Shown piece after piece: positions 18,212 through 52,554 of a DNA stretch of 64,000 nucleotides. The translations under genes were made by a program, and so were the position numbers. Location: positions 14,752,198-14,816,197 of the forward strand of contig NC_087377.1 of NCBI RefSeq assembly GCF_963675165.1, written 5' to 3'. Source of the DNA: Halichondria panicea. Lineage: Eukaryota; Porifera; Demospongiae; Suberitida; Halichondriidae. Each line of letters starts with the position of its first letter. Within the stretch, counting starts at the first letter, position 1. The notes under the pieces are model-generated. The model saw nothing but the letters and a program-made list of their open reading frames with translations, had not been told where the DNA came from and did not search any database.

Positions 18212-19738
18212 CTACCCTCTTCTGAAACAGGGAGGAGAAGCACAAAATACTGCATCACCGGTAACCTGCAAAGAAAGGACTTATTAGGGCAAGCAATAAA
18301 GTCTACAAGCTAGTCTATTTGTACATGCTTTGTTGTAGCTATATACCAAGGCCTATATAGATCTTAATTAATAAGTATGCAGCTATACCTGGTCCTGGAA
18401 ACGACGCCCAATACATTGTGACCATTTCTTGTAGCACTTGTTAGGGGAAGAGTAATCAGGGCATTCTGTGCAGCTGGGAATCGTTGGGTTCTCTACTCCA
18501 AAAATGCATGCACTGCAGTACGTTAGGCGACAAGATCCTGTACAACCAGGCCGGGGGAGGGCGTCATTATACGCAGGGCTGTTGGTGTGACAAGGAAAAG
18601 CAGATATTTAAGAGACAAAAACGGAAGTATAATTAACATAGAGTCTTAAAATTAAAGCAAGTATTATACAGCCAAAACAAGTTTTTTTGACACCCTGTAG
18701 CTATCTCTCTGGTGATAGAAATTGAACTCACTTTGAGCATAGACCTTTTCGATTGGCAGTGCAGTAATCTCTAGAACACTCTGGGGGACAAGAGCACTGC
18801 ACTGTTTTGGTAGGGCAGGGTGCTTGCACACATACTACAGGCACGAGGCTGCAGATCTGATCAGACGAACAACCACCATTATCCAGTTCACAGTCTGGAT
18901 TGCAGAATGTTTTTCCTGTTCCCTTGTCGACTTCACATCGGTGGCCGAATGGACAGCGAAGTTTGCACACTGCAAAGACAGGCCGTGTTGATCCACCACT
19001 ATTATTACTACAGTGTATATAATTATGACTCATGCATACACACTATTATATTACTACAAAAAATTAAGGATAACTTGCCATAGTCAACAACCCTGTATTC
19101 TAGACAAACCTTCTTTGACACAGATTGGACAGCATTCTCCCTCTGGGACCGTCAGGATTTCTCCTTTCTCACACACTGGCCTGAGGCAAAGTACCGCGGA
19201 GCAGTCTATACCTGTTGGTGGGCACATATCGGCTGTCACACATATATTGTTAACAGTGTCAATGACTTGTCCAGGAGGGCAGGTGCATCCTTGTACACAC
19301 AGGGTGCTGCAGATTTGGTTAGGATCAGAGTCACAGGTTGTAGGGCACGGGGATGCACAGTCACTGAAAACTTGACCTTCAATTTCACATTGTATTGCTG
19401 CATAAGAAAAGCACAATAGGCTTGCACCTACAAGAACTGACAAAGAGCATTTCAGACAAACCTTCTTTGACACAGATTGGACAGCATTCGCCCTCAGGAA
19501 CTTCCAGCATCTCTCCTTTCTCACACACTGGCCTCAGGCAAGACACAGCAGAGCAGTCTTGTTGGCATCTGGCACAGCACTCACCAGGTGGGGTGACCAA
19601 TACTTCACCGTCATCACAATCCTTATCAGTCAAGACCAGACAGTCAACTAAAAAGCAAATTGAATTTATGGGAATAGCAGTGATCACTCCAATGGAGCCA
19701 GCAAGCACAAGTAAAGAGAGTGAAATTCTCAAATTCAT
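18212..19738 (-). CDS. Secreted cysteine-rich inhibitor-like protein, paralogue A
   Basis: Five exons, in order: 19462-19738, 19110-19397, 18732-18969, 18389-18578, 18212-18265; 1047 nt, 348 residues, frames close. Signal peptide MNLRISLSLLVLAGSIGV. Exon 1 holds two half-VWC-like modules (pattern C-x4-C-x4-C...GECC-x2-C). Exon 2 is a TIL module ([24 protein letters not shown]) plus one half-VWC module ([12 protein letters not shown]). Exon 3 is a FOLN/EGF-like, antistasin-like module (CPFGHRCEV, CELDNGGCSSDQICSL). Exon 4 is a conserved cysteine module (PGCTGSCRLTYCSAC, KWSQCIG), and exon 5 ends ASPPCFRRG. TIL and antistasin-like modules in known families inhibit proteases; that role is inferred here. 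Compared with B and D, exon 1 lacks about 63 residues: CFLVDC runs straight into LVLTDKD, an in-frame deletion. It is otherwise intact. Confidence 0.85.
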
Positions 19739-19739
19739 G

Positions 19740-21110
<1,371 letters not shown>

Positions 21111-21260
21111 TACTGAATCAAGTAATTTGGACCCTATATGCCAGGTATTGGGCGGTGTTGGGGATGTGTTCCTGCAGTGTTGCTGCTTGCAAGAGAACCC
21201 AGTAGACACAGGTCTGCAGTTACAGTGTGGACTTGAAACAGGCTCCTAACTGACCTATAT

Positions 21261-21535
21261 AGATTAGATAAAGGCTGCAATGGCATTCCAAGTAAGCGAA
21301 CTAAGCATAACTCGAGAACGAAGCACTATTTTGCAAATCCACGAATTAAAATCCATGACTAGAATCCTATAGAAACTCTTACTTGCACTTGATTGATCCT
21401 TGAGCAGCTGTAGCAGTCTACACATACACACGTACACACGTACACACACACACACACATACGTACACAAACACACTACCGTATAATTATTTAATAATGAT
21501 ATTTAAACCTTGCTTGCGCATGCGCAGCGAGGCAT
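21261..21535 (-). repeat. Dispersed repeat with internal (CA)n, SINE/MITE-like
   Basis: It shares, in opposite orientation, the tract at about 52575-52840: GAGGCAT...GCGCATGC...CAAGC end, a CA/TG microsatellite, then GCAGCTGTAGCAGTCTACAC, TTGATTGATCC, AATCCACGAATT and GGCTGCAATGGCATTC. A third, partial copy lies at about 15535-15715. No coding capacity or tRNA-like promoter boxes were recognised, so the class is open. Confidence 0.6.
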
Positions 21536-21701
21536 AATCATGCATCAGAGTTTTTAGGTGTCATCATTATGAATCTCATTGTATAATTATGAATCTCGAT
21601 GTTAATACTTGCATGCCGGTATATACTGAACACTTTGGAGTGTCTTTTGTAATTGTCAGTTAGATTGGTAGCAGATCAAAAAGAAAAGGAAATCCCTAAT
21701 A

Positions 21702-22265
21702 ATGGATCGAGTCATTAATTATAAGGTGATAATAAAATTATTCTTTGTTTTGTTTGGCAGTCTCAGTATCATCACAGTGCTATGTTATTTCCCAAGCTTA
21801 AACTTTAAGGCGGCAAGGGCTTATAATTAAGCCTTATAATTAAGCCTTTGCCAGTGAACTCATGAACAAGACAATGTTATTGAACGCTCAAAGGAGGTAA
21901 CGACTGAAACAAAACTCTCCATAGCGGACACAACTAATAATGATATCGAAATTGCACAAACTCGTTTTCTCTATCTAACTCAAACAGAAAACTGTATTCT
22001 AACTTATCTCAAAGTGATTGGTGACTCTGAAGCATGTCAGTGTGATGTCATCATCCCCAGTTACAAAAAGAAGTGTGCTGACACGTCCTTGCCTCATGTT
22101 CAATACATATATTCAACTCTAGTAAGTCTACAACCTGGACTGTTGGAAGAAACTTCCTTTACAAAGCATCCGAAAGAAAAGTACATCCACTACATTTTCA
22201 TGGACGACGATGCTCAACTAATAACAAAAAAACATGGGAGACGGAATAATGCCTTTTTGAAATAA
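21702..22265 (+). pseudogene. Broken type II membrane protein fragment, glycosyltransferase-like
   Basis: An ATG at 21702 opens a 42-codon frame beginning MDRVINYKV followed by a hydrophobic stretch (LFFVLFGSLSIITVLCYF), a typical N-terminal signal anchor. A short duplication of CTTATAATTAAGC brings a stop at 21828. Beyond it another frame stays open from about 21850 to 22265 and looks coding (FLYLTQTENCILTYLKVIGD, CDVIIPSYKKKC, YIHYIFMDDDAQL). The MDDD after a hydrophobic strand recalls the metal-binding DXD motif of Golgi glycosyltransferases; that assignment is tentative. The segment is absent from the sister duplication block at about 17380 and ends abruptly, so it is probably an inserted, truncated, intronless gene copy. 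Confidence 0.5.
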
Positions 22266-23100
22266 AAAAAACTACACATACTTCTTGACCTTGATCCAGA
22301 GGTCTACTCCAGTCTTCTATCACCTGGAGACAAATGAGTTTTTTGGGCCAAAAAGAATGATGCCTATGTCCTTCAGCCATTTTTTGCCATGAGAACATCG
22401 TTATATATGCAAAACTTATCTCTACCAAAATGAACATTGATGCCTATTATTCCCAATTATTCTTTAGACACCTATTATTGCTCCGAGCATAATTTATCAG
22501 GGCCTCACTAGGGGATGAAAACCTCATTGGAAATGGGCAGAGATGGTGCCATATACTTGAGAACTTTACGCTGCAGACAGATGTTACAATCCTGTAAGGA
22601 CTGTTATAATGATTATAGAAGGATCTCAGCAGATTATAATAGGTGGGACTTGCTCATTGTCTTGAAGGTGAGCTATATATCATTTTGTTTTTTGTGTCTG
22701 TAACAATCCCTTACCAGCTTAATGTTGAACTACTTTTAAGACCCTTTACTACAGTAACAGTTAATTATTTTGTTCACATTTTGCTTACTTTACTGTGTGC
22801 ATAATCTGTCGGAAGATAAATCATTCATCTCTTGACTCTTACTGACGGCTATAGGCAATACCATCAAGCAGCAATCATGCATGCATATACACTAATGAAC
22901 CAATAATATTTGTGTCCTGTCATTACCAGTGAACAATCATTGTTTATGTCAAGTTCACTCAAATAGACTCATTACTACATCATGTCAACAGCTTATCTCA
23001 AGCCGTTTCAATTTGCTAGAAGAAACATGCCGTATATATATATAGATCTAGATCTACAGCTATTAAAACTATAAAGTGCATGTCCATTGTTTATGCAAGG

Positions 23101-24824
23101 CTACCCTCTTCTGAAACAGGGAGGAGAAGCACAAAATACTGCATCACTGGTAACCTGCAAAGAAAGGACTTAGAGCAAGCAATAAAGTCTACGAGCTAGT
23201 CTATTTGTACATACTTTGTTGTAGCTATATACCAAGGCCTATAATTATATAGAATAACTATGCAGTTATATACCTGGTCCTGGAAACGACGCCCAATACA
23301 TTGTGACCACTTCTCGTAGCATTTGTTAGGGGAGGAGTAATCAGGACATTCTGTGCAGCTGGGAATCGTTGGGTTCTCTACTCCAAAAATGCACGCACTG
23401 CAGTAGGTTAGGCGACAAGATCCTGTACAACCAGGCCGAGGGAGGGCGTCATTATACGCAGGGCTGTTGGTGTGACAAGGAAAAGCAGATATATTTAAGG
23501 GACAAAAACGGAAGTAATTAACATAGAATCTTATAATTAGCGCAAGTATTATACAGCCAAAACAAGTTTTTTTGACACCCTGTAGCTATCTCTCTGGTGA
23601 TAGAAAATTGAACTCACTTTGAGCATAGACCTTTTCGATTGGCATGGCAGTAATCCCTAGAACACTCTGGGGGACAAGAGCACTGCACTGTTTTGGTAGG
23701 GCAGGGTGCTTGCACACATACTACAGGCACGAGGCTACAGATCTGATCAGATGAACAACCACCGTTATCCAGTTCACAGTCTGGATTGCAGAATGTTTCT
23801 CCGTTGTCAATTTCACATCGATGGCCGGGTGGACAGCGAAGTGTGCATGCTGCACATTTGAACCAATTAACACTATAATACTACTTTATAGAAAGAGTCG
23901 ATATTGTATTGGTATATGACTCATGCATATACACACTATTATAATTATTACTACAAACAATTAAGGATAACTTGCCATAGTAAACAACCCTGTATTCTAG
24001 ACAAACCTTCTTTGACACAGATTGGACAGCATTCTCCCTCTGGGACTGTCAGGATTTCTCCTTTCTCACACACTGGCCTGAGGCAAAGCACCGCAGAGCA
24101 GTCTATACCTGTTGGTGGACACATGTCGACTGTCACACATATATTGTTGACAGTGTCAATGACTTGTCCAGGAGGGCAGGTGCATCCCTGTACGCAGAGG
24201 GTGCTGCAGATTTGATTAGGATCAGAGTCACAGGTTGTAGGGCACGGGGATGCACAGTCACTGAAAACTTGACCTTCAATTTCACATTGTACTTCTGCAT
24301 AATGAAAGTACAATAGACATGCACCTACAAGAACTGACAAAGAGCATTTCAGACAAACCTTCTTTGACACAGATTGGACAGCATTCGCCCTCAGGAACTT
24401 CAAGCATCTCTCCTTTCTCACACACTGGCCTCAGGCAAGACACAGCAGAGCAGTCTCGTTGGCATCTGGCACAACACTCACCAGGTGGGGTGACCAATAC
24501 TTCACCGTCATCACAATCCTGATCAGTCAAGATCAGACAGAGGACAGCTGCACAGTCTGGACGAGTGCATACAGGGCAACATTCACCAGGAGGTGTTTCG
24601 ATAACTTCTCCTTCTTTGCATTGAGGTTTTGCACACAGAACAGTGGAGCAGTCTGGCCCACAGATAGGACAGCACTGGCCTGGTGGAGTGAATACGTCCT
24701 CTCGGTTGCATTTAAGGGGTAAACCACAGTTAACTAAAAAGCAATTTAAATTTATGGGAATAGCAGTGATCACTCCAATGGAGCCAGCAAGCACAAGTAA
24801 AGAGAGTGAAAATCTCAAATCCAT
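23101..24824 (-). CDS. Secreted cysteine-rich inhibitor-like protein, paralogue B
   Basis: Five exons, in order: 24359-24824, 24007-24294, 23618-23849, 23274-23463, 23101-23154; 1230 nt, 409 residues, frames close. Signal peptide MDLRFSLSLLVLAGSIGV. Exon 1 carries four to five half-VWC-like modules ([44 protein letters not shown]). Exon 2 is TIL plus one half-VWC. Exon 3 is the antistasin-like FOLN/EGF module (CPPGHRCEI, CELDNGGCSSDQICSL). Exons 4-5 are the conserved cysteine-rich C-terminus ending SPPCFRRG. Differences from A: the full module set in exon 1, and two residues fewer in exon 3. The gene looks intact and shares its upstream region with A. Its likely location is extracellular; a protease-inhibitor role is inferred from the TIL and antistasin-like modules. 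Confidence 0.85.
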
Positions 24825-24870
24825 GGTTGATGATAATTATGTTACTATGCAACACACTCTTTTGCCTGAA

Positions 24871-24878
24871 CTTTTATA
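24871..24878 (-). promoter_or_regulatory. TATA box of gene B
   Basis: The minus strand reads TATAAAAG about 47 bases before the ATG at 24824, at the position conserved in genes A, C and D. Confidence 0.65.
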
Positions 24879-25569
24879 GATGTGTTCTAGATCTAATGTG
24901 CACAAAGCGTAATAATTATATAGGCACAATAACACAGGAGATTACAACAGCCAGGTGGTTTTGCATTTGAAAGGATCTCTATATCCTGTGTCTTGCAAGA
25001 CATCACCCGACCTCCTGTATAGCACCACCACAGTTACAAGGTCTCCATTGATGCAAACTTGTGACGTATAGAAGGAAGGGGCAATTCTAAGTTCTAAATA
25101 TAAATAATATAATTTTACCAGTGAGCCTGGGCTCTGTGGGAAATCATATCCTGTGAGGGCGCTCGCCTTCCCCTGCAGCAACAGAGTGGGAAATTTATTT
25201 TGTTTGTAAATGGTGTAGATGTATAAATGGTATAATTAACAGTCAAACAAGATATTAATAATAAAATATAATAATTATATAGATATAAGATATGAGTCAA
25301 TACGGTAATGAATACGTTAGTATAGATTTTTATGTGTTACTCTTAATAGGAGTGTTCAAATTATAAACAATGTTGAAGTATAGATTATGTCTGCCATAAA
25401 TACTGCAATCTGATTGGTTAGAGGAAGTGTTCTATCCAACTTAGAAAATTATGTACTTACTTAGACAATCATGTAATTCACTTAGAAAATTATGAAGCAA
25501 AGATTAGATAAGAACATTCAAATTATCTGATTGGCTAGAAACTCATGGTTGCTATGATCTAAAATGCTT

Positions 25570-25700
25570 AGACACTGTTTAGGAAGTTTCCACATGATTT
25601 AGAAGCCCTCAGGGCAAGTAGAACCCTCACTACGTTCGGGATACTACAACCAGCCCTTTGGGCTTCTATAAATCATGTATAAACTTCCTAAACAGTGTCT
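25570..25700. repeat. Fold-back repeat with about 41-bp arms
   Basis: AGACACTGTTTAGGAAGTTT at the left is matched by AAACTTCCTAAACAGTGTCT at the right. The arms continue inward as CACATGATTTAGAAGCCC and its near-complement, with about 45 bases between. No coding capacity. It is likely a MITE-like element or an RNA hairpin source. Confidence 0.85.
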
Positions 25701-26205
25701 AACTATTATGTAGTGGTATCGAGAGCTCACAAAGGTCAGGGTAAATAGATCTATTCATGGTTGTATTATGGCAACCATGCATGTATATAACACAATCCAA
25801 GTGTAATAAGGATTCCATGCACACTAAACCCCCTCCCAATCTATGGATGTAAGACATGAAAGAAACCACCAGCTGTATAAACAGTTCGTTTCAAGTGGCT
25901 TCTCACAGCCCCGTGTAAATCTGGCAGGGAAATGTATGGCTGTCACAAAGAAAGAGAGTATAATTTGATCTCATGCACCAATGGAGATTTTATACGTATA
26001 GGCCAGCTTTGAGCCCGTGTACATCTGGCAGGGAAATTTATGATTGTCACCAAGAAAGAGAGTATACCGTATATCAGAGGAGGTTCGACTGGCGCGGTGC
26101 AGCTCAAGCAGTTAGCCTCTGATTACACTCAGCAAGAAACATACGGCGTGGGCGGATAACAACCAAAGACTAATCCACCCACACATGCACACACATGAGG
26201 CGTAG

Positions 26206-26880
26206 CAGGGGCGTAGCCAGGATTTGAGAGAGGGGGGTGCTGAGTGAATGGATTGTCTGAATTACCAGTGCGCTCGCCCCAACAGGGGGGTCTGGGGGCA
26301 CTCTCCCAGAAAAATGTTGTTGTTACCTGCTCTGATATTGATTCTAACGCAATCTGGCTAAAGAAATGAGGGTACTGCTGCTTTGAGGGTACTGGTGGTT
26401 AAGCCACATCTTCATCTGAAGATGTCCGAGTTGTGACAATTAAATCATGGCTGCTAACCAGGTTCTGCTTGTGAATTAGCAGGGCAGGGTGGCAAGCCAC
26501 TTGCAGTTGCAGTGCTGCTCTGTGAACTGGCTCAAAGAGTGACATGATGATGATGGTGATAGCTGCTGAACAGTTTGCAACTCTGTGGGGGACCTTGGTC
26601 TGCTCAGCCCACGTGGCTTTGCGCATGTGCACTGAATATTTGGAGGTGGAGCTAGCTAGTTGGAGGTGGAGTTTTGAGTTCATCGTGCAATAGAGCTCTA
26701 GTTCTCTCATATCTACATCAGCTAGCTAGCTAGTTGGGCGGAGCCCGACCGTCCCTCCCGTCAGGGACGGTTGGGCTCCGCCCAACTACTAGCTAGCTTA
26801 GCTAAGGAACTTGTGGAGCAGAGTCTGAGGCCAGAGGGGGGTGCTGGAGCACCCTCTGCACCCCTCTGGCTACGCCACTG
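26206..26880. mobile_element. Nested DNA transposon, 675 bp, CAGNGGCGTAGCCAG ends
   Basis: It begins CAGGGGCGTAGCCAG and ends with the complement of CAGTGGCGTAGCCAG (14 of 15 matching). It is flanked by a perfect 5-bp direct repeat CGTAG (26201-26205 and 26881-26885), consistent with a target-site duplication, and lies inside the element at 26075-26947. No transposase is seen. The element at 53598-54171 has similar ends and also a 5-bp flanking repeat, so they may share a mobilising transposase. Confidence 0.8.
26732..26787. repeat. Near-perfect 25-bp hairpin with 6-base loop
   Basis: AGTTGGGCGGAGCCC-GACCGTCCCT is followed by a 6-base loop and AGGGACGGTT-GGGCTCCGCCCAACT. The only mismatch would be a G-U pair in RNA. 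Flanking TAGCTAGCTAG strings extend the potential stem. It is GC-rich in an AT-rich region and lies inside the nested transposon. Confidence 0.9.
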
Positions 26881-27320
26881 CGTAGTGGAGTCAGCAGGGG
26901 CCATATTCCATTGCTATAGCTGCACCGCGCCTGTCGTACCTCCTCTGATCGTAATTATTGAGAATCATGCACTTTTACTCTAAACACATTATGAACTAAA
27001 CCTAGGATGTGTCCAACATTCAATTTCAAGCAAATGCATGTTGGCATAATTATATATACTTTCATTGCATGCATGTTGATCAGTAACCATTGAAAATTGA
27101 CCATGCACAAAAGTGTTTATACACTGACATTTGTATGCATCAATGTCCAGGTAAAGATCATTACATTAAGTTTTGCCCAACGACATCAACAATCTTATGA
27201 TGATCCACCAGTGATGATTATAATCTTGATGTTCTTACAGAATTATATTTAAAATCAGCTTTGTTCATCTACAATCATAAAGTTTTTTTACATAGCTGGA
27301 TTAGATAATTATTATAACAA

Positions 27321-30300
27321 TTATCCCTTTCGAGGACACGGAGGACTGGGACACTGAATATGCTCAGTGGAGGTTGACTGCTGCAGGGATAAACAGAGTA
27401 ATAAACAGTATATGTTGCTTTTATAAACCATTGCTTTCCGTCAAATTGCATGCATGCATGGAAACTAGGTGTCGACATGCATGCATGTACAATAGTATAG
27501 TCTACTATATAATTATAGAGCTAACCATATAATTTGCTCTCCTCCAGAGTTTCCCAGCACACCTAGACCACTTCCGGTAGCATACACTCGGTCTGGAGTA
27601 GTCATTTAAATTTGAGCACTGTCGACGTTGACATCGACGCAAATTTGTTGGTTGAACCACCTCACTACCACTACCACTGTAGAAGCAAACCCTACAGTAG
27701 GTCAGCCTGCACGCTCCAGTGCATCCAGGAATCTCCAGACCCCCAAGGGTAGAATTGATGCTGAAGTAATTGAATTTAATGATTTTGTGTCAGTAGTACA
27801 TTCAGTTGCTGCATGTTTGCTAAAGTTATGCAACATTAACAATAACGGGACCTATATGATTGCAAACTTCTCACCCTCAAAGCCCAAACAATACCCTAGT
27901 AATGCCAAAATAATTGCATTAGTGAAGTCAAAATACTTTCAGTAACTATTATATAGACTCACCTTGAGCACAGGCCTCTTGGGTTGTTAGTACAAAACTC
28001 CTTTGAGCAGGGAGGAGGACAGGAACACTGAGCAACAGGAGGACAGGGAGCACGTACACAGAGCACCTGTTTGAGCTCACAAATCTGATCAGAACGACAG
28101 CCCCCATTGTCTAAACTACAGTCTGGATCGCAAAATGGTTCACCAGTCAGTTTGTCAATTTCACAGCGATGACCAGATCGACATCTCACGGCAGCGCATC
28201 GACTGAGACACTGGACGACAGGTGGGCACGGGGCACGAACACACTGAACTTGTTGTAGAGTGCATAGCTCACCCTTGGAGCAACCACCGTTATTCAAACT
28301 GCAATTAGGAGAGCAGAACGGCTCTCCAGTTGGCTTAAATATTTCACAGCGGTGACCAGATCGACATCTAATTGTGGAGCAGGGATCTCTTGTACCTGTT
28401 AGTGATAGAGTCAAGTTTTATATAATAATTATTATTTGTATTGACTCACCACAGAACATCCGGCACTCATTTAGGGATTTAAAGTTGTTTGCATTACCCT
28501 GGCAACCACCATAGATGAAAGGTTCGCATTGTCTAGAAATAGAATTGTAGTTGTAGCGTGGAAACAATGCTTCACAAGGGCCCACTTCTTCTGGCAAAGA
28601 GCAGACCTCATCTCTACTTAGACAACTGACTGTAGGGGGGCAAGGCGTAGTCACACATTGCACAACAGTTAGCTGGCAAATTTGGTTCTTAGCACAGCCT
28701 CCGTTGCCGATTTCACATGATGGCTCACAGAAGGGCCGGTTGGTTTGCACGTCCACCTTACACGCAAAGCCTAGTGCACAGTCAACCACAGCACAGGGAT
28801 CTATACACAGTAATAATAATAAATATTATTACTGTCAGTAAAAAACATCTTCAGTTATGATAGTGTTATACTCATTTACCAAAACACACTGGACAGCATT
28901 CTCCCTCTGGGACCTCCAGGATTTCTCCTTCCTCGCACACTGGCCTCAGACAGGACACCGCAGAGCAGTCTACACCAAGTACACAAATTGGACAGCATTC
29001 TCCTTCTGGGACCTCCAGGATTTCTCCTTCCTCGCACACTGGCCTCAGACAGGACACCGCAGAGCAGTCTACACCAAGCACACAAATTGGACAGCATTCT
29101 CCTTCTGGGACCTCCAGGATTTCTCCTTTCTCGCACACTGGCCTCAGGCAGGACACTGCAGAGCAGTCTACACCAGGTACACAGATTGGACAGCATTCTC
29201 CCTCTAAGACCTCCAAGGTTTCTCCTTTCTCACACACTGGCTTCAAGCAGGACACTGCAGAGCAGTCTACACCAGGTACACAGATTGGACAGCATTCTCC
29301 CTCTGGAACCTCCAGGATTTCTCCTTCCTTACACACTGGCCTCAGGCAGGATACCGCAGAACAGTCTACACCAGGTACACAGATTGGGCAACATTTTCCC
29401 TCTGGGACTGTCAGGATTTCTCCTTTATCACACTCTGGCCTCAGGCACAGTACCGTAGAGCAGTCTACACCTGTTGGTGGGCACATGTCGGTTGTCACAC
29501 ACATATTGTTAACAGTGTCAATGACTTGTCCAGGAGGGCAGGTGCATCCTTGTACACACAGGGTGATACAGATTTGGTCAGGATTAGAGTCACAGGTTGT
29601 AGGGCACGGAGATGCACAGTCACTGAAAACTTGACCTTCAATTTCACATTGCACTTCTGCGTAAGAAAGAAACTATGAACTAAAGAACTGTATTAGATAG
29701 ATACATGACAAAAAGTGTACCTTCTTTGACACAGATTAGACAGCATTTGCCCTCAGGAACTTCCAGCATCTCTCCTTTCTCACATACTGGCCTCACGCAA
29801 GACACAGCAGAGCAGTCTCGCTGGCATCTGGCACAGCACTCACCAGGTGGAGTGACCAATACTTCACCATCATCACAATCCTGATCAGTCAAAGCCAGAC
29901 AGAGAACAGCTGCACAGTCTGGACGAGTGCACACAGGGCAACATTCACCAGGAGGTGTTTCGATAACTTCCCCCTCTTCACAGTCAGGCTTCAAGCACGA
30001 CACTTCAGCACATGATAACTCAGGCTGAGCACAAAATGCTTCATTTGTTGTCTTGTTCACTTTGCAACGAAACCCTGGCTTACAGTCAACTAATGCACAA
30101 GGATCTGTATAGGAAAAAACAATGGTATACGTTTGTACTTCTTTTGATTGAATGATAACACATACTTGTACATTCCTCCCTGGGAACGCATCGGCCAGAT
30201 ATGGTGTCAATTAATTCAGCTCCCGGACAGCCACAGCCAGGCCGGCACACTGCTGCGCAAACTCGAAGCTCTTCGTTGATGGCATCGATACAGGTAGAAT

Positions 30301-31157
30301 CACAGCCAGGACAAAAACTAAATTCCTGTCCCTCGACTGCACAAGCTAGAAACAACAGTATGCATCATTACTTTGAATTGTGAAAAATTATATCAATTTT
30401 AGCATAATTATACCTGTTGGTGGGCATATGTCAGTTGTCACACATTTATTATTGACAGTGTCAATGACTTGTCCAGGAGGGCAGGTGCATCCTTGTACAC
30501 ACAGGGTGATACAGATTTGATTAGGATCAGAGTCACAGGTTTTAGGGCATGGGGATGCACAGTCACTGAAAACTTGACCTTCAATTTCACATTGCACTTC
30601 TGCAGTAAGTATAATTATAATAGAAACAGGCATGTATCTATAAAGAACGGATATAATTATGATAAAAAGCGTATACCTTCTTCGACACAGACTGGACAGC
30701 ATTTTCCTTCAGGAACTTCAAGCATCTCTCCTTCCTCACACACTGGCCTCAGGCAAGACACAGCAGAGCAGTCTCGCTGGCATCTGGCACAACACTCACC
30801 AGGTGGGGTGACCAATAATTCACCATCATCACAATCCTGATCAGTCAAGGCCAGACAGAGAACAGCTGCACAGTCTGGACGAGTGCACACAGGACAACAC
30901 TCACCAGGAGGTGTTTCGATAACTTCTCTTTCTTCACATTGAGGTTTTGCACACAGAACAGTGGAGCAGTCTGGCCCGCAAATAGGACAGCATTGGCCTG
31001 GTGGAGTGACTAAGTCCTCCGGATTGCATTCAAGGGGTCGACCACATCGAACTACAGAGCAATCTATCTTTGTAGGAACAGTTTCACTTGTGATGGCAGT
31101 AATCACTCCAATGGAGCCAACAAGCACAAGTAAAGACAGTGACAATCTAAGATCCAT
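27321..31157 (-). CDS. Large secreted inhibitor-like protein, paralogue C, with Kunitz domain
   Basis: Nine exons, in order: 30677-31157, 30414-30599, 30166-30345, 29721-30104, 28880-29656, 28450-28800, 27963-28395, 27526-27760, 27321-27380; 3087 nt, 1028 residues, all phases close. Signal peptide [18 protein letters not shown]; then half-VWC modules (exon 1), TIL (exon 2), a second, distinct TIL ([14 protein letters not shown], exon 3), FOLN-like plus half-VWC (exon 4), TIL plus six 33-residue half-VWC modules (exon 5), and FOLN/EGF-like plus a Kunitz domain (exon 6: [39 protein letters not shown]). Exon 7 has two antistasin-like FOLN/EGF modules. Exons 8-9 are the cysteine-rich C-terminus ([12 protein letters not shown]; ends SPPCPRKG). 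In the Kunitz domain the residue after the second cysteine (P1) is Glu, so trypsin inhibition is unlikely. The broad domain set suggests a secreted multi-headed protease inhibitor; the targets are unknown. Confidence 0.85.
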
Positions 31158-31209
31158 GGTTAATTAATAGTTTCTTGCAACAGACGTATAGCATGGCCTT
31201 GACCTTGCA

Positions 31210-31217
31210 CTTTTATA
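31210..31217 (-). promoter_or_regulatory. TATA box of gene C
   Basis: The minus strand reads TATAAAAG, followed by TGCAAGGTC, about 53 bases before the ATG at 31157, as in the other paralogues. Confidence 0.65.
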
Positions 31218-31989
31218 CAACTATTGGACGCATGTGCAATACACTGAGAGATTGCACTAGTCAGTTTATCCTGCATGTGAGCAAGAATTAACACTCTGAC
31301 CTCAATCATGTATAGTCTACCAGCAGTTACTTAAATGGTCTCTATTGAGACAAGAGAGAGGTGACTTGTTTTACACACTAGAAATCTACCGGGGTAGTCT
31401 AGATCTATACATGCATGTAGAGAGTTTATATACTGAGCTGCATTTAATTGTTCCTGCATTCCTTTACAAAACAGAAGGGGCATTGATTTGACATCTTTCG
31501 CTATTATGCTGAACTGTGCCTCCTTCCAGACTATAGCCTAGCATACCTGCATTTAGTTGTACAGCAGCTGGGTCCATTCTAGGCTTTTCCCAATTATGCT
31601 AGAAAAACGAGTGTTGCAAGCGTGCGCTTGTTAATGCCTCTCACCATGTTTTTGCTTTCACTCAAAAGTATTAGAATGTTATAGAAGAGGTCAATAATTT
31701 GCAATGTGCTTTGATTGTTTCACAAGAAAGGGGTGTCCACAGTTAGTGCATACTGATCGTCTTAAATGGCCTGTAGCCAAACAGTGGGAGCAAACCTTTG
31801 TCAAAGGTATAGTCAGTAGTCTGTGAGATAAGTATTAAAGACAGAATTCATCACAGAAAGTAGTATCTATATAAGGCAAGGTAATGTGAAGCTATAATTA
31901 TTCAGAGTTCAGACAGAGAGGTTGGAGTCCGCAATGATGAGGTCCACGGAAGCAGCTATAGATGGCCGTTGAAGGATGGCTTTGAAGAT

Positions 31990-33440: not shown

Positions 33441-33493
33441 CAACAAAGAAGGCAGACTGGAAGCAATTGTTAGCTTATACTTTTCAACATCAC

Positions 33494-33883
33494 TTACAGT
33501 AAGTAACAACCAATCAATTGCTGGAATGTGTTGACGATGACAGTTTTGTGAGGTCCAACATCAAATTTAAGCACAAAGGCAAGTGGTGCATGGTCAGAGA
33601 AGTTACAAGGAGAGTGCATGCATGTTATGTACGTATCACAGTGATGCTGTAGCGTGAGGATGTGATCAGGCCACGATCTGACTGAACTACCATCCTTCTC
33701 ATAATCAGTATGTGAATTTGACAGAGTTTTTGTAAATAGGTCCACAGAGCAGAGGTTGAGGTCAGATATGAAGCACATAAGACTGTTACGGAAAACAGAA
33801 GAGCGTGAAAAATCTACGTTGAAATCATCATTGCATGTCTTTAAGGTGAATTCATTAAATTTTTGTTTTTGTGTTTGTAACAA
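33494..33883 (-). pseudogene. Fragment of a LINE-type APE endonuclease
   Basis: A 129-residue open frame on the minus strand contains SSVRSWPDHILTL and ends in a NFSDHAPLAFVLKF segment; SDH-x-PL is the last conserved motif of apurinic-like endonucleases in non-LTR retrotransposons. The N-terminal catalytic part and any RT are missing. It borders, but is probably distinct from, the RT remnant just below, whose family carries its own C-terminal nuclease-like segment. Confidence 0.65.
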
Positions 33884-33957
33884 TCCCTTACCAAAATTAA
33901 TGTAGCTTAATGTTGAACTACTTTAATTATACATTTTGCTTACTTTACTGTTTGTAT

Positions 33958-35475
33958 AATTGATATAATTTTTCACAATTCAAAGTAATGATGCATACTG
34001 TTGTTTCCAGCTTGTGCAGTCGAGGGACAGGAATTTAGTTTTTGTCCTGGCTGTGATTCTACCTGTATCGATGCCATCAACGAAGAACTTCAAGTTTGCG
34101 CAGCAGTGTGCCGGCCTGGCTGTGGCTGTCCGGGAGCTGAATTAATTGACACCATATCTGGCCGATACGTTCCCAGGGAGGAATGTACAAGTATGTGTTA
34201 TCATTCAATCAAAAGAACTCCAAACTTATACCATTGTTTCTCCTACAGATCCTTGTGCATTAGTTGACTGTAAGCCAGGGTTTCGTTGCAAAGTGAATAA
34301 GACAACAAATGAAGCATTTTGTGCTCAGCCTGAGTTATCATGTGCTGAAGTGTAGTGCTTGAAGCCTGACTGTGAGGAGGGGGAAGTTATCGAAACACCT
34401 CCTGGTGAATGTTGCCCTGTGTGCACTCGTCCAGACTGTGCAGCTGTTCTCTGTCTGGCCTTGACTGATCAGGATTGTGATGATGGTGAATTATTGGTCA
34501 CCCACCTGGTGAGTGTTGTGCCAGATGCCAACAAGACTGCTCTGCTGTGTCTTGCCTGAGGCCAGTGTGTGAGAAAGGAGAGATGCTGGAAGTTCCTGAG
34601 GGCAAATGCTGTCCGGTCTGTGTCGAAGAAGGTACACTTTTTGTCATGTATCTATCTAATACAGTTCTTTAGTTCATAGTTTCTTTCTTACGCAGAAGTG
34701 CAATGTGAAATTGAAGGTCAAGTTTTCAGTGACTGTGCATCTCCGTGCCCTACAACCTGTGACTCTGATCCTGACCAAATCTGTATCACTCTGTGTGTAC
34801 AAGGATGCACCTGCCCTCCTGGACAAGTCATTGACACTGTTAACAATATGTGTGTGACAACTGACATGTGCCCACCAACAGGTGTAGACTGCTCTACGGT
34901 ACTGTGCCTGAGGCCAGAGTGTGATAAAGGAGAAATCCTGACAGTCCTAGAGGGAAAATGTTGCCCAATCTGTGTACCTGGTGTAGACTGTTCTGCGGTA
35001 TCCTGCCTGAGGCCAGTGTGTAAGGAAGGAGAAATCCTAGAGGTTCCAGAGGGAGAATGCTGTCCAATCTGTGTACCTGGTGTAGATTGCTCTGCAGTGT
35101 CCTGCTTGAAGCCAGTGTGTGAGAAAGAAGAAACCCTGGAGGTCTTAGAGGGAGAATGCTGTCCAATCTGTGTACCTGGTGTAGACTGCTCTGCAGTGTC
35201 CTGCCTGAGGCCAGTGTGTGAGAAAGGAGAAATCCTGGAGGTCCCAGAAGGAGAATGCTGTCCAATTTGTGTACTTGGCGTAGACTGCTCTGCGGTGTCC
35301 TGTCTGAGGCCAGTGTGCGAGGAAGGAGAAATCCTGGAGGTCCCAGAGGGAGAATGCTGTCCAGTGTGTTTTGATAAATGAGTATAACACTATCATAACT
35401 GAAGATGTTTTTGACTGACAGTAATAATTATTACTATTATAATTATAATTGTTACTGTGTATAGATCCCTGCACC
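33958..35475 (+). pseudogene. Inverted, truncated copy of gene C exons 3-5
   Basis: The plus strand here matches the minus strand of about 28790-30395, introns included. It starts in the intron before exon 3 and stops just after the first bases of exon 6 (ATCCCTGCACC, near 35464-35475). Exon 3 (34011-34190) has Cys to Tyr in GRYVPREEC. Exon 4 has an in-frame TAG after CAEV at about 34352 and a one-base deletion in GTCACCCACCTGG at about 34498-34510. Exon 5 (34696 onward) is open and has five half-VWC modules, against six in gene C. There is no promoter, signal peptide or C-terminus. It is a nonfunctional inverted segmental duplicate, although exon 5 could still donate sequence to the intact genes by gene conversion. 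Confidence 0.85.
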
Positions 35476-35930
35476 GCTTCTACACCGGTGTCATAAAATT
35501 TTGGGCCCCCCATGTTTACACCCCCCAGGGCCTAGAATTTTAATATTTTGGGACCCCCGGGCCTATAATTTTAACAGTTTAGGCCCCGCCCCCTAGGGGG
35601 TCCATTCTGTTAAAATTCTAGGCCCCCTCTTTTTTCTGCTATCCTTTGTAATGGATTCTTAACTGGATCTCTATTACACTTGCCTATTTATAGCTGTCTA
35701 CTTGCTATAATTATATTTACTTCACTTCACTTTGTTTCACTTTTTCTATAACATGTGGCTGACTAAGTCACCAGACGTGCACAAGATATGTTGTACAAAT
35801 AGATAGTAAAATGATAGTCAGTGGTGACGTAATTATAATGATATACATAGCTAATCAATAAATTCCATACACTGTTGAACAGGGTACTGTTCCACACATG
35901 TATACATATACAGTTAATCAGTTAATTATC
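35476..35930. repeat. GC-rich inverted repeat and gene-free spacer
   Basis: At 35515-35630 GGGGGCCTAGAATTTTAA-like tracts occur in both orientations (GGGCCTAGAATTTTAATATT; TTAAAATTCTAGGCCCC), with runs of C and G, so the DNA can fold back. The rest, up to the BEL-like element, shows no coding sequence. Confidence 0.6.
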
Positions 35931-38900
35931 TTCGATCAAACACTCAGTAATCCGATCTTTGGCTTGCAAAGCGGCCTTTTGAGTCGAACGTGCCCGAACA
36001 ACGACATTCTTAGTTGGGCGATCGGCATTTGTAGTCGAACGTGCTCGAACAACGACGTTCTCAGTTGGGCGATCACTCACATTCGTGTACTGTGTCTCTT
36101 GGGGATCAGTACGAACTTCTAGCGGGTATATGTGTTGGACAGGTCTCCGAATTATCTTGACCTGCCCTCCCTTGGATATCACCCTTACACGCACGCCACG
36201 AAGCTTATCATCTGAGCTTGGGGTGAGCTCTTCAATTCTTCCCAATCTCCACATTCCTCGTGGGTGTCCTTCATCGTAAACTGTCACAACTTCGCCCACC
36301 TGAAGAGTATAGGTGGCTCCCTTTTATTGGCGAGTGCGATGAAACTCTCTTAATTCTAACAGGTACTCCTGTTTCCATCGCTTCCAGAATGTATCCAGCG
36401 TTTTCTAGCGAGATGACTCGCTCTTCGGGTGAGGTTCTCAGGAGAATAGTGCTCATCGTGAGTCTCATGCTCTGTGGCATCTGGGAGAGAGAGGATCCTA
36501 TATTCGACCAGTAGGTGAGATGGTGTCAGGGCCTCTGTAACATCATCAGAGTAAACGTAAGTAAGGGGTCTTGAATTTAGCACCCCTTCCACCTCTGTCA
36601 CAAGAGTTAGTAGCTCATCAAAGGTCAGACAGGTTTTTCCTATGGATTTTCTTAGGCATCGTTTTGCAGACTTTTATCATGCGTTCGAAAGCTCCACCCC
36701 ACCAAGGGGCCTTTTCAAGATTAAATTGCCACTGCACATGTACAGTACTGAAGAATTTCTTTTACTTATGGTCATTCACAAATGCTCAATATTGAAACCG
36801 ATGTCGCCTTAAATGTTTTTGCGTTATCAGAAATCATTCTAGCTGGCGTTCCTCGTCTAGCTGTGAAACGTCTAAAACTTCTCATGAAGGTCTCCGCTGT
36901 CATGTCCTGGACTAGGTCGAGGTGGACAGCTCTGGTGGAACAGCACGTATAAAGGATCATCCATGCCTTGGACGGTATTCCTGGGATTGTCAGGTGTTTT
37001 AACGTACATAGGTCCAGCATAATCGACTCCAGTGGTTTGAAATGACCTGGTTTCGCTTACTCGAAATTCAGGCAGGGGAGGAGGTAGTGCGCCCTTACAG
37101 TGGGCTCCTTCATACCTCCGACAGGTAACACAAACATAAAGCAGATTCTTCACAACCTGTCTCCCCCGTATGACCCAATACATAGATCTTAACTCTAATC
37201 CCATTGTGTAAAACACGCTTGTGGGCTTCAATGACAAAGAGTGTTGTCAGGTGATGTTCTTTGTCCAAAAGAATAGGGTTTTTTGCAGTGAGGGGAAGGG
37301 AAGATTTTGCCATTCTACCTCCACACCTCCATACACCCTTTGGTCCAAAAATAATCCAAACTGCTCTTTCCATACAGGGAATTGTTTCTTTTCAGCTAGT
37401 TGGTTTTGTATATCGATTATCCACAACAACTTGGCTCGCTCTATCTCGATCTGTGCCTCTGAACTGACAATCGGTGGTATACTCTTAAGTCTTTGTTCAC
37501 AAATCTGAGTTTCAGTCATCATGCCTACTAGTTGCAATCGTGCGGTTTGGAGCAGTATTGGTGTCTGAGCTCCGACATACAGTACGCTAGAAGTTCGTGG
37601 GACATTAGCTCCTTCGGAGTTCCTCTCGGGATCCGGTAGTGAATCAGATGGTTTCTTGGTCTTATCCTGATAAGCGGCTTGAGTACATATTGATATGTGG
37701 TGCCGTCCTTGGCAATTTTTGGAATTAAATTTATATTGACAGTCCCTGCTAAGGTGGTGCCTCTTCAAACATACAAAACATCGGCCTGCCTTTCGAAATA
37801 ACTCCTTGCGGTCTGTTTTATCGGCTACAGTATAGTACAGGAGTTAGACGTGTGTTCTTGACTGCAGTACACGCAACTAACTTGACCTTCTCTAAATCCA
37901 GGGTTGTTTGCCACTAATGTAGCAGCAGTAGGCAAACGTGGTTGAGTTCTTCGAGGGGTACTGGGAATGAACGCACACTACCGTGCACTAACTTCTTGCT
38001 CTAATATCGTCATTAGTCGATCAAGGTCCCAGACGTCACCAGTCATCCCACGCGTGACAACTAGTCTCAATTCGGGAGGTAGCTTGTTGACAAGGACAGA
38101 TGTCAACAATCCACCGTAAGTCTGAGCAGGTACTCTCAATGCTCTGAGCCCTCTTATGTAGGCTTCGACTGAGTCATGCAGTTTTTGAAGTCCCTTAATA
38201 TCGTGGTGTGAAGTTACACCTTGAACAGTCAACAAAGCCTCCATATATATGGCGATTGATTATGAGTTGGGGATTACCGAACCGTCTTTTCAATGTAGCT
38301 ACGGCTTCTTCGTAATTTGCTTCCGTAGGAGTCAATCCCGCAATGGCCTCGGCGGCCGTTGATTCCAGCAATGATATCAAGTAATTAAACTTGTCAATTC
38401 CCGACAACGCAGTATTAGCATGTACAGAAGAGGAGATGGAATCCCAAAACGTAGTCCATTTTGTCAAATCGCCATTAAACCTCTTCATAGTCAATTTAGA
38501 AAGTTTTACGTGAGGTGCATGAGCGGGCATTCTAGATGGAAAAGGTACGGTAGGTACGGTTGGAACATGTGTCATGGCGTAACTCAAGGGTGTAGTTTTG
38601 TAAATGTTGGGATCGATTATTAGTGGTGGCTGTGGACCACGTAGAAATCTGTTTTCATGAGCGGTTGATATGTTGGGATCGATTAGTGGTGGCGGTGGAC
38701 CACGTAAAAATCTCGTTTCGTCGACTACCGTATTATTTGGCGGTAGATATCTCGTTTCGTTAGAAAGCGTTCGTAATTCAGAGGCTCTAACGAGCGGCGA
38801 ATCGATGGTACCATGCGCAAACGACACACCACAAGGGTTTGAGTATTGTACTGATACATTGGTATTATATATAATTATGCAGAAGACACAACATGCGTAT

Positions 38901-39280
38901 TCATCATAGTATTAGCAGTACAAACATATGACACATTAGGTACACGTCAAATCGTGACATGGGCTTGCGCCAATGTATAAGTGGGAGGAGCACGTCTCAA
39001 TGCTTCTGATGTGATGGTCGGCGCCGATTTCTTAAGTGAAAAGTTCCATGTTCGAGATAAGGAGAACGGTTCCGATGTCGTGGCCTCAGTAACAGCTTTG
39101 TGCCGCAGTGAGTCAGTCTCAGAAGCAACGGTCTAATGTTGACATGAGCGGTCACTTTCATCACCCGTGTCGGAAGTTGTGCTTCCATTGACTGGCGTCC
39201 TAGTTCTTCTCTTAGACTTAATGGGTCTAGTAAGTTTAGTGATTTCCTCGCGTTAATATGTATCCAACTGTTCATATAGA
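35931..39280 (-). mobile_element. BEL/Pao-type LTR retrotransposon remnant lacking RT
   Basis: In minus-strand order: a gag region (KRFNGDLTKWTTFWDSISSS, LESTAAEAIAGL, then LVNKLPPELRLVVTRGMTGD), a zinc knuckle (LKRHHLSRDCQYKFN, CQGRHHISIC), and the first bases of the aspartic protease region (VGAQTPILLQTARLQ). There follows an abrupt jump to sequence that normally lies after RNase H (AKLLWIIDIQNQLAEKKQF). Next come an integrase with an HHCC-type zinc segment (VIEAHKRVLHNG, CVTCRRYEG) and core pieces ([21 protein letters not shown]), and the BEL-specific C-terminal region (LNSRPLTYVYSD, GEVVTVYDEGHPRGMWRLGR). Protease, RT and RNase H are deleted and several frames are broken. No matching LTR pair was found by eye. 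It is inactive. Confidence 0.85.
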
Positions 39281-40892
39281 GATCCAGTTAAGAATCCATC
39301 ACATCCTTTTCTGCACGATAGAACAAAGATGAACGAAGTCAAAGAGATATAATATTGTTGTAAGGTTAGCTCTATTAGTTGACAAAGCATCAAAGAGACA
39401 TGCATGCAAAGACTCTGTAAGCAAAAATGTTAGCAAAAATGTTATAGCTATCATGGAATTCAAAGTGAAGGAATTAAGATTTACCTTCAAGTTTGCTTAT
39501 ACCTATTATAAGAGTTTAATGCTTTGATGCAGCTCTGCAATGTTGGATCTGCCTGCATGTAAGACAATCGATGTTGTGCATAGCTATCGCCATACAATTA
39601 TTTGTAACTTCGTGCTAGCTTCGCCATTCCAATTTTCCCAGCAGGACAAAACATGGTAGCGTTATCCCCCGAACGGCTGGCTGCCAAAGGAGGCGAAATT
39701 TTGTGAATTCACAATAATTATAAGCACACATTTTCAGTGCAAAGACAACAATTCATATCTTCTTCCATAATTATGTTTGGAAGAAGATCGATGTAAATTG
39801 TTGTGGAGATGCTCCAGTATAATTATAGCATTACTAGCTCAGCTCTCAATATGGAATCATAGAGAGAAGAGAGAAACTCTTTTATCTATGGTGGCCGGTC
39901 TGCCACGGCTGTTTGTTTGTTTATGCTGTTAAACTATTCATTTCACCTTCGATTGGTGTATAATTGTAAATTGGTTAATGTCCTCTACTCCTACTTCAAT
40001 GGGCTAGTCCAAAGCCCGTTGGTCAATCCGTCTCAATTCTCTCCGATTCCGAGGGCGAGTATATTATGGTAAAATGTGGTTTGGTTGATGGCAAGTTATA
40101 CTTAAACTTAATAAGGGATTGTACTGGCTGGAACAATTACCTCACAAATTCAGCCAACACAGTAATAATAATAATTATTATCACAAGATAACTGAAATGA
40201 AGATGACAATGCACCCCTTAAAAGATGTGCTCACAATAGAATAGACAGATTTCTTCAATATCTTGCAACTTGACTTTCCAGCAGACCTGTAGCAGCATCT
40301 TTACGCGGTTAACAAAACATATGCGCGTGCAGTTCATTGTGGCGGTAGGCAGGTGACCCTTCTCGGCCACCGTAGTATTGAGCGCGCATGCACATTACAT
40401 CCAGGAAAACAATTCTCATAAATTATTCATGTTTAGCGCTTGTGTTAAAAAGTAAGCCTCGATTAAAACCGCAGAGATACACGGATGGTACTTCGAGGGT
40501 ACTTCCGTTTCCAATCCCTCTCTACTCTATCCATGGTCTATCTAACTGCAGTACTGCATGCATAGTTACTAGATCGAGTAATTGATATGTGGGCAGGGCC
40601 ATTTGATGCGCATGCTCACTGCTGACGAAAATGATGACCTTTTTTTAATGAACTTCAGCGCCTATGCTCACACAATTTGAGCCCTGCCATTCCCAAAATC
40701 CTGGCTTCACCACTGTGTCATGCATGTCATTACCGGTGAACAATCATTGTTTATGTCAAGTTCATCTCATTACTACATCATGTCAACAGCTTATCTCTAT
40801 CAAACCATTTCAAAAAATAATAATTTTCTAGCATATATATAGATCTAAATCTATAGCTCTATGTTAAGTGCATGTCCATTGTTTATGCATGG
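39281..40892. other. Gene-free interval before gene D
   Basis: No exons are recognised. A hairpin at about 39746-39803 pairs CAACAATTCATATCTTCTTCC with its complement. A repeat end GGTGACCCTTCTCGGCCACCG at about 40355-40375 recurs at 55790 and 56270. A second repeat, CCGTTTCCAATCCCTCT (about 40507), recurs at 50660 and, with small changes, at 53220 and 54320. Confidence 0.5.
40574..40717. mobile_element. Truncated MITE related to the 15832-16064 element
   Basis: It shares AATTGATATGTGGGCAGGGC, GCATGCTCA, TGATGACCTTTTTTTA and the terminal CACTG with the right half of the 15832 element. The left terminus is not seen. Confidence 0.6.
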
Positions 40893-43025
40893 CTACCCTC
40901 TTCTGAAACAGGGAGGAGAAGCACAAAATACTGCATCACTGGTAACCTGCAAAGAAAGGACTTATTATAGTCATTGGCTTGATATGCTTATATAGAGCCT
41001 ACAAGCTAGTATCAGTATACAAGCTTTGTTGTAGCTACCGAGGCCTACATAGATCAGTATCTTAATAAGTATGCAGCTATATATATACCTGGTCCTGGAA
41101 ACGACGACCAATACATTGTGACCACTTCTCATAGCACTTGTTAGGGGAGGAGTAATCAGGACATTCTGTGCAGCTGGGAATCGTTGGGTTCTCTACTCCA
41201 AAAATGCATGCACTGCAGTAGGTTAGGCGACAAGATCCAGTGCAACCAGGCTGAGGGAGAGTGTCATTATACGCAGGGCTGTTCGTGTGACGAGGAAAAA
41301 GCATTTATTTGTATGTAAGGGGACAAAAACGGAAGTAGTTATAAGTCTTAATTGAAGCAAAATTTAACTCACTTTGAGCATAGGCCTTTTCGATTGGCAG
41401 TGCAGTAATCTCTAGAGCACTCTGGTGGGCAAGAACACTGCACTGTTTTGGTAGGGCAGGGTGCTTGCACACACACCACAGGCACGAGGCTACAGATCTG
41501 ATCAGATGAACAACCACCGTTATCCAGTTCACAGTCCGGTTTGCAGAATGTTTCTCCGTTGTCGACTTCACATCGATGGCCAGGTGGACAGCGAAGTTTA
41601 CATGCTGCACATTTGAACCAATTAACACTAATACTTTATATGAATAGTTAATATTGCATTGATAATTTAGTCATGCAGAGTATATTGGGTAACATGACCA
41701 AATCCCAGTGTGGTAATAATGTTTACACACCAAATAAATTCTATGCACACTGAACCCCTATAAGTAATAGGAATCACACATTACAATCAAATTTTATGAA
41801 CCAGCTAGTTTCTGTCCTGAGAAACACAAACCACGTACTTTTATCCCAAAAAGGGAACGTAGGATAATTTTTTACATCATAAGAAGAAGCTGTTGTGCTT
41901 AGAGACAAACCTTTTTTGGCACAGATTGGACAGCATTCACCCTCGGGAACTTCTATCGTCTCTCCTTCCTCACATACTGGCCTCAGGCATAACACAGCAG
42001 AGCAGTCTACACCAAGTACACATATTGGACAGCATTCTCCCTCTGGGACCTCCAGGATTTCTCCTTTCTCACACACTGGCCTCAGGCAGGACACCGCAGA
42101 ACAGTCTACACCAAGTAGTACACATATTGGACAGCATTCTCCCTCTGGGACCTCCAGGATTTCTCCTTTCTCACACACTGGCCTCAGGCAGGACACCGCA
42201 GAACAGTCTACACCAAGTACACATATTGGACAGCATTCTCCCTCTGGGACCTCCAAGATTTCTCCTTTCTCACACACTGGCCTCAGGCAGGACACCGCGG
42301 AGCAGTCTACACCTATTGGTGGGCACATATCAGTTGTCACACATATATTGTTGACAGTGTCAATGACTTGTCCAGGAGGGCAGGTGCATCCTTGTACGCA
42401 CAGGGTGATGCAGATTTGGTTAGGATCAGAGTCACAAGTTGTAGGGCACGGAGATGCACAGTTACTGAAAACTTGACCTTCAATTTCACATTGTACTTCT
42501 GCATAATGAAAGTACAACAGACATGCAACTACTATAAAGAACTGACAATGAGCGTGCAGACAAACCTTCTTTGACACAGACCAGACAGCATTCGCCCTCA
42601 GGAACTTTCAGCATATCTCCTTTCTCACACACTGGCCTCAGGCAAGACACAGCAGAGCAGTCTCGCTGGCATCTGGCACAGCACTCACCAGGTGGAGTGA
42701 CCAATACTTCACCGTCATCACAATTCTGATCAGTCAAGGCCAGACAGAGAACAGCTGCACAGTCTGGACGAGTGCACACAGGGCAACATTCACCAGGAGG
42801 TGTTTCAATAAGTTCTCCTTCTTTGCATTGAGGTTTTGCACACCGAACAGTGGAGCAGTCTGGCCGGCAGATAGCACAGCACTGGCCTGGTGGAGTGAAT
42901 ACGTCCTCTGGGTTGCAGTTAGGGGGTAGACCACATCGAATTACAGAGCAATCTATGGGAACAGCAGTAATCACTCCAATGGAGCCAGCAAGCACAAGTA
43001 AAGAGAGTGACATCCTCAAATCCAT
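40893..43025 (-). CDS. Secreted cysteine-rich inhibitor-like protein, paralogue D
   Basis: Five exons, in order: 42566-43025, 41911-42498, 41373-41604, 41089-41278, 40893-40946; 1524 nt, 507 residues, frames close. Signal peptide MDLRMSLSLLVLAGSIGV. Exon 1 has the same half-VWC series as B. Exon 2 has a TIL module followed by four nearly identical 33-residue half-VWC modules ([28 protein letters not shown]), where A and B have one; one linker carries an extra Leu. Exon 3 is the antistasin-like FOLN/EGF module; exons 4-5 are the cysteine-rich C-terminus ending SPPCFRRG. It is likely secreted. It is the third full five-exon gene of the family, lies about 10 kb from gene C, and is separated from it by retroelement debris and the inverted pseudogene. 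Confidence 0.85.
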
Positions 43026-43068: not shown

Positions 43069-43076
43069 CTTTTATA
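43069..43076 (-). promoter_or_regulatory. TATA box of gene D
   Basis: The minus strand reads TATAAAAG about 44 bases before the ATG at 43025, matching the other family members. Confidence 0.65.

Positions 43077-51535: not shown

Positions 51536-52554
<1,019 letters not shown>

Follow-up and report, generated by a model that had tools for sequence, protein, structure and literature searches.

A 64,000-nucleotide stretch of the genome of the sponge Halichondria panicea (NCBI RefSeq assembly GCF_963675165.1, contig NC_087377.1, positions 14,752,198 to 14,816,197; hereafter the window) carries, between its positions 18212 and 43025, four genes of a tandem cluster that has at least five members and encodes cysteine-rich proteins (~15-16% cysteine) with a signal peptide and a variable number of short modules. 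Secreted proteins built from shuffled phase-1 modules are well known; here, the two ends of the proteins and their inhibitor-like domains are conserved while a run of repeats expands and shrinks. The best claim to novelty lies in a C-terminal module of ten cysteines, which is apparently undescribed. The products are tentatively read, at a confidence just short of even, as a secreted scaffold, rich in disulfides and variable in length, in which the TIL domain would act as a fixed joint or as an inhibitor. A plain role in protease inhibition is a close rival, and the two readings overlap.

Organisation of the gene cluster

Exon chains rebuilt by script on the minus strand gave predicted proteins of 348 (A), 409 (B), 1028 (C) and 507 (D) residues, with no internal stops and with GT-AG at all introns, reproducing exactly from the DNA the lengths that a first-pass annotation had given for four intact genes. 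Exon start phases are 0,1,1,2,0 in A, B and D and 0,1,1,1,1,1,1,2,0 in C. Gene A (18212..19738; exons 19738-19462, 19397-19110, 18969-18732, 18578-18389 and 18265-18212) encodes, in this order, a signal peptide, two half-VWC modules, a TIL domain, one half-VWC module, one module here called NGGC and the C-terminal module. The same order is found in gene B (23101..24824; exons 24824-24359, 24294-24007, 23849-23618, 23463-23274 and 23154-23101), with four half-VWC modules before the TIL and one after it, and in gene D (40893..43025; exons 43025-42566, 42498-41911, 41604-41373, 41278-41089 and 40946-40893), with four on each side. Gene C (27321..31157, nine exons) begins with a signal peptide and four half-VWC modules, followed by TIL domains of types 1 and 2, a partly NGGC-like stretch with three half-VWC modules and a second type-1 TIL; six half-VWC modules, an NGGC module with a Kunitz domain, two further NGGC modules and the C-terminal module complete it.

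On the minus strand, the motif TATAAAA starts 65, 54, 60 and 51 nt before the ATG of A, B, C and D, respectively, that of D lying at 43070..43076 and its counterparts starting at 19803 (A), 24878 (B) and 31217 (C). The common signal peptide, TATA position, exon phases, C-terminal module and tiny last exon claimed at first pass were all found in A-D, and the proposed local tandem family of secreted proteins with variable module number is likewise supported, the cluster even reaching beyond the window. A fifth member, gene E, lies 1.5-3.9 kb to the left (C1:14750745-14748261) and encodes 406 residues in six exons. It resembles A-D in its kind of signal peptide, its C-terminal module and its tiny last exon, and contains three modules each of the half-VWC and NGGC types. 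Matches to TIL and Kunitz are both absent from gene E at Pfam E up to 1, and TIL is therefore not constant in the family. A gene-prediction artefact was set aside as an explanation, splice sites and phases being identical across the five genes.

The C-terminal module

Eight of the ten cysteines are encoded in exon 4 of A (18389..18578) and at 23274-23463 in B, 27526-27760 in C and 41089-41278 in D, a segment of 63 residues in A, B and D and longer in C; the tiny last exon adds two further cysteines (A 18212..18265, B 23101-23154, C 27321-27380, D 40893-40946; all on the minus strand). The motif reads C-x(3,4)-C-x2-T-[YF]-C-x2-C ... W-x2-C, with C-x3-P-C following in the tiny exon. Across the genome (131.5 Mb in 39 contigs, searches of which score a limited number of candidates), the module was detected at 15 places at E up to 0.0023: five in the cluster, four of these in the window, one on contig C3 and nine on contig C12. 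The tiny-last-exon pattern (a short open stretch after AG, C...PC and a stop) was present at 10 of 12 loci, namely all 15 except A, B and D, against 0.23 expected from first-order Markov shuffles; these ten are not independent, two being genes C and E and several C12 loci being near-copies, and the pattern was written after seeing A-D.

Partners were examined at 10 of these 15 loci and differ between them: the module lies near NGGC modules and a Kunitz frame on C12 and near two TIL frames on C3, in neither case joined to them by exon chains. The C3 locus (L067, C3:4052000-4057000) also contains VWC-like pieces, and its two TIL frames read CTRQC, with Arg at the putative P1 position (by eye). 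At one C12 locus (L066:189-802, C12:2741688-2742301), two weak sub-cut-off matches of the At5g54830 type (PF25489, E 0.0077 and 0.0012), which we take to be Skeletor-like, stand directly upstream of an NGGC array and then the C-terminal module.

The module gave no Pfam, NCBIfam or credible PDB match; pattern matches in prokaryotic genome contigs and IMG/VR numbered 10 and 51, none of them confirmed by tblastn. The whole architecture was not recognised in the literature by title or start of abstract among the matches listed, subscription papers being mostly beyond reach. A cysteine-rich module without a Pfam or PDB relative, recurring near different partners, is a useful addition in itself. We further propose, with confidence somewhat below even, that the two-exon module may represent an undescribed extracellular domain family. 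It would mark a set of secreted proteins with exchangeable upstream parts (on C1 and C3, half-VWC and TIL; on C12, NGGC arrays and Kunitz) for assembly into, or targeting to, a matrix or coat specific to the lineage, with half-VWC runs of evolving unit number acting as rulers. If it is a matrix-assembly tag, it would give access to the extracellular materials of a probably early-branching animal.

Repeat modules

Half-VWC modules number 3 in A, 5 in B, 8 in D and 13 in C (29 in total), of which 1, 1, 4 and 6 follow the last TIL, as first annotated; exon 1 of gene A holds two, versus four in B, C and D. The post-TIL run of A-D is built of 33-residue units with six cysteines each, and one such unit could close three disulfides alone. 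Six 99-bp units form the array of gene C (28884..29462, minus strand) and four that of gene D (41921..42304, minus strand), in which the second and third units (D6 and D7) are identical in DNA across the 84 bases compared.

The half-VWC label of the first-pass annotation is supported by the genome-wide Pfam VWC search, 22 of whose 38 matches fall in the cluster. All 22 run from profile position 23-31 to position 57 of 57, corresponding to the second half only; single matches are weak (E 0.07-4.4), and some pass the cut-off once in-frame neighbours are added. A PDB profile search with the half-VWC alignment returned nothing credible, and no VWC chain was among its matches. These matches do not span both halves of the VWC domain (PF00093), and whole proteins D and E show VWC below threshold, E also showing sub-threshold FOLN and EGF_3 (Pfam at E up to 1).

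The label of antistasin-like modules, given earlier to what are here the NGGC modules, found no support. Pfam antistasin (PF02822) has seven matches in the genome, none in the cluster and none in the C12 NGGC arrays, and none was found in proteins A-E; with all seven outside the cluster, this family was dropped as a candidate. A PDB profile search with the NGGC alignment returned seven weak matches at E up to 10, none to antistasin and only of EGF type (best E 1.2), and NCBIfam gave no match to protein D or to an NGGC pair. The NGGC module is widespread: at E up to 0.001 the genome has it at 68 places, of which 56 lie on C12.

Selection and change in repeat number

The comparison of paralogues proposed at first pass was run as pairwise Nei-Gojobori ratios of non-synonymous to synonymous substitution rates (dN/dS) on short segments of one assembly. 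The C-terminus gave 0-0.17 in all six pairs among A, B, D and E; against gene C, values were 0.27 (B-C) and 0.23 (D-C) with dS near saturation, A-C not being computable because dS was saturated. The six TIL copies form 15 pairs, five of which take in a broken copy described below; 14 gave 0.03-0.20, and the other one (A versus the second type-1 TIL of gene C) gave 0.43 with three synonymous changes. NGGC exon 3 gave 0.36 (A-B), 0.09 and 0.10, whereas exon 1 without the signal peptide, encoding half-VWC modules, was the fastest part measured (0.35-0.89 in all six pairs). Introns differ by 3-50%.

TIL and the C-terminus are thus under purifying selection; the inhibitor-like TIL belongs to the conserved parts, and the fastest exon is that of the half-VWC modules. 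The earlier description of a rapidly diversifying inhibitor is not borne out, given the same Thr-Leu pair in six of six type-1 TILs and the low TIL and C-terminal dN/dS. What changes quickly appears to be repeat number, not domain sequence. In exon 1, the closest half-VWC units of different genes are those in equivalent positions (B2-D2 95%, B4-A2 99%, D1-C1 86%), and post-TIL units D5-D7 and C9-C13 are closest to one another within their own array; the order in exon 1 is therefore old and the post-TIL number mostly recent. The two exon-1 units of A against four in B, C and D are most simply explained by loss, in spite of the short distance between A and B (whole-gene dS 0.12). For the post-TIL differences, we infer unequal exchange as the simplest explanation.

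TIL and Kunitz domains and the inhibitor alternative

Pfam profiles confirmed the TIL in A-D and the second TIL type and Kunitz domain in C. Against a TIL (PF01826) gathering score of 24.5 bits, A reached 35.6, B 36.9 and C 57.7 bits, with one stretch each in A and B and three in C; the TIL of D reached 38.4 bits in the genome search, yet is missing from the hmmscan list of the whole protein, probably a filter effect. By reading, ten cysteines are conserved in the cluster TILs. The second type lies in exon 3 of gene C (30166..30345, minus strand). The type-1 loop reads Cys-(I/S)-Thr-Leu-Cys (Cys5-x-Thr-Leu-Cys6), with Thr-Leu as the putative reactive-site pair P1-P1' in six of six copies, one being the broken copy; this register is assumed from an alignment with AMCI. 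Further TIL arrays, with many equal scores, were seen at C10:3324085-3328776 and C14:4239740-4242353.

The Kunitz domain of gene C (residues 735-786; 28451..28606, minus strand) scored 71.5 bits (E 6e-20) against a cut-off of 21 (PF00014). It is the only one in the cluster, its top-listed match is SmCI, and alignment with TFPI, bikunin and SmCI places Glu at P1. The Kunitz frame on C12 reads GSCFA, with Phe at P1 (by eye).

These domains raise the possibility, which we consider real if well below even, that the proteins are multi-headed protease inhibitors whose TIL and Kunitz loops would block microbial or endogenous serine proteases, the half-VWC and NGGC modules serving as spacers. Ten-cysteine TILs above the Pfam cut-off in A, B, C and D, the Kunitz match and the uniform Thr-Leu pair argue for it, and a fixed P1 Thr would suit subtilisin- and elastase-like enzymes. 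In one study, two silkworm TIL proteins are reported to be stronger inhibitors of subtilisin and elastase when P1 is Thr, and cocoon protection is mentioned; these two, however, lack cysteines 2 and 6 of the ten-cysteine pattern, and according to the same study typical ten-cysteine TIL inhibitors mainly target cathepsin, trypsin and chymotrypsin (PMC10004685). The P1 Glu of the sole cluster Kunitz domain also speaks against inhibition: the motifs given for trypsin and chymotrypsin inhibitors have Arg, Lys or a large residue (F, L, N or Y) at this position (PMC3273431). Gene E, moreover, has no TIL or Kunitz match, and diversifying selection at the loop was not seen.

The scaffold reading and remaining alternatives

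In the scaffold that we tentatively favour, the constant parts would be the signal peptide, the N-terminal half-VWC block, the NGGC module and the two-exon, ten-cysteine C-terminal module. Its site of action may be the extracellular matrix, a surface coat or mucus. The half-VWC run would set length and spacing, and the C-terminal module would do the common job of assembly or anchoring. TIL would act as a joint of the kind found in von Willebrand factor (vWF) and might also inhibit one fixed protease class, protecting the coat. Gene E, which keeps both ends without a TIL, is in line with this.

The best PDB matches of the TIL are indeed to vWF, at E 2e-13; since this value sums several TIL domains, the scaffold reading was lowered and the inhibitor reading raised. 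In single stretches among the alignments shown, vWF reached 29.6 bits, LL-TIL 26.6 (5e-5) and BSTI 23.1 (6.5e-4), suggesting a modest per-domain lead of a few bits over inhibitor TILs. Several other points weigh against a scaffold as well. Pfam at E up to 1 detected neither VWD nor C8 nor any further assembly domain in proteins A-E. Kunitz and TIL domains typically occur in inhibitors, and the P1 residues of the C3 TILs (Arg) and the C12 Kunitz frame (Phe) look inhibitor-like. Homogenisation of the post-TIL arrays has exceptions, C8 being nearest to B5 and A3 and D8 nearest to the exon-1 units B4 and A2. AlphaFold gave no usable model of the C-terminal module from the four window sequences (mean predicted local distance difference test score, pLDDT, 47.3) or of D exon 2 with its window homologues (mean pLDDT 33.6).

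An extracellular modulator of BMP/TGF-beta signalling, acting through VWC-type modules like chordin or crossveinless-2 (CV2), is unlikely. VWC-type modules do stand in series, and CV2 also has a TIL, but VWC matches in the cluster are confined to the second half of the domain. In a study of CV2 VWC1, subdomain 2 makes no contact with BMP-2, Clip together with subdomain 1 binds with equal affinity, one of the three disulfides of subdomain 2 uses a cysteine of subdomain 1, and subdomain 2 is cited as part of the chordin-binding site (PMC6270503), so that some role in binding is conceivable. As subdomain 2 makes no such contact, modules consisting of a second half only should not bind BMPs in the manner of CV2. 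A BMP antagonist was therefore dropped as a candidate, the first VWC half being unmatched in the cluster and BMP-2 binding being placed, in that study, in Clip and subdomain 1.

Similarly unlikely, finally, are molecules of recognition or aggregation (self/non-self or microbe binding) with repeat number as the variable trait: post-TIL counts of 1, 1, 6 and 4 in A, B, C and D and two DNA-identical units in D suggest a fast-changing number, but hypervariable residues were not seen in the one assembly studied and many units are homogenised, not diversified.

Inverted copy and genomic context

The inverted broken copy reported at first pass is present at 33955-35471 on the plus strand. It covers exons 3-5 and the start of exon 6 of gene C with 97% identity over 1419 bp. 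The copy lacks one 99-bp unit, and its exon-4 counterpart contains a stop in frame as well as a frame break, which mark the copy as a dead fragment. Its TIL differs from the second type-1 TIL of gene C by one non-synonymous and two synonymous changes, and the copy is therefore recent. Repeats in the window comprise the 99-bp units, direct 300-nt copies at 87-99% and an inverted 868-nt pair at 97%, all far exceeding short chance repeats by length alone.

Upstream of the genes, a block is duplicated at 20357-20542 and 24820-25005 (98%), and an extra promoter-like TATAAAAGTGCA occurs at 20415 on the minus strand with no such gene found behind it. A long CA/TG dinucleotide microsatellite (20837-21117) separates genes A and B, and a 57-bp tandem repeat (43573-44005), of six registered copies, four of them at least 99% alike, lies ~0.5 kb upstream of gene D. 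Retroelement pieces, presumably BEL/Pao-like, occupy part of the interval from the inverted fragment to gene D (36775-38911, minus strand), with DUF1759 (38198-38911) and a weak sub-cut-off integrase (36775-37056) in separate frames. An AAA ATPase exon, FtsH-like by eye, was found at 51543-52100 on the plus strand (Pfam AAA, 1.7e-9). Elsewhere on C1, locus L024 (5280527-5280718) is a nuclear cox1 fragment with two TGA codons, which it reads as Trp, and a KITGY-type sequence like that of non-bilaterian cox1 in sponges and cnidarians.

Comparison with known systems

Multi-Kunitz inhibitors such as SmCI, TFPI and bikunin share with the cluster the Kunitz domain of gene C, for which SmCI is top-listed; unlike in those proteins, it is a single copy with Glu at P1 and a minor part of protein C. 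Antistasin-type inhibitors are similar in having short cysteine-rich modules in series, whereas NGGC lacks a Pfam or PDB antistasin match, its weak resemblance, below threshold, being to FOLN and EGF_3. TIL serine protease inhibitors (AMCI, BSTI, BmSPI38/39) have the ten-cysteine TIL and the Cys5-x-Thr-Leu-Cys6 loop in common with the cluster; the cluster proteins are, in contrast, large and multi-modular, match these inhibitors slightly less well than vWF TILs, and their inhibition is putative. Chordin and CV2 resemble the cluster proteins in their serial VWC-type modules and differ in the first VWC half, unmatched in the cluster, which contains the BMP-2-binding part (PMC6270503). Compared with vWF and the gel-forming mucins, proteins A-E have no VWD or C8 match, carry VWC as second halves and possess additional NGGC and C-terminal modules; what they share with that group is a TIL whose best PDB match, by a few bits, is vWF, the placement of TIL beside VWC-type modules, and a secreted, very cysteine-rich character.

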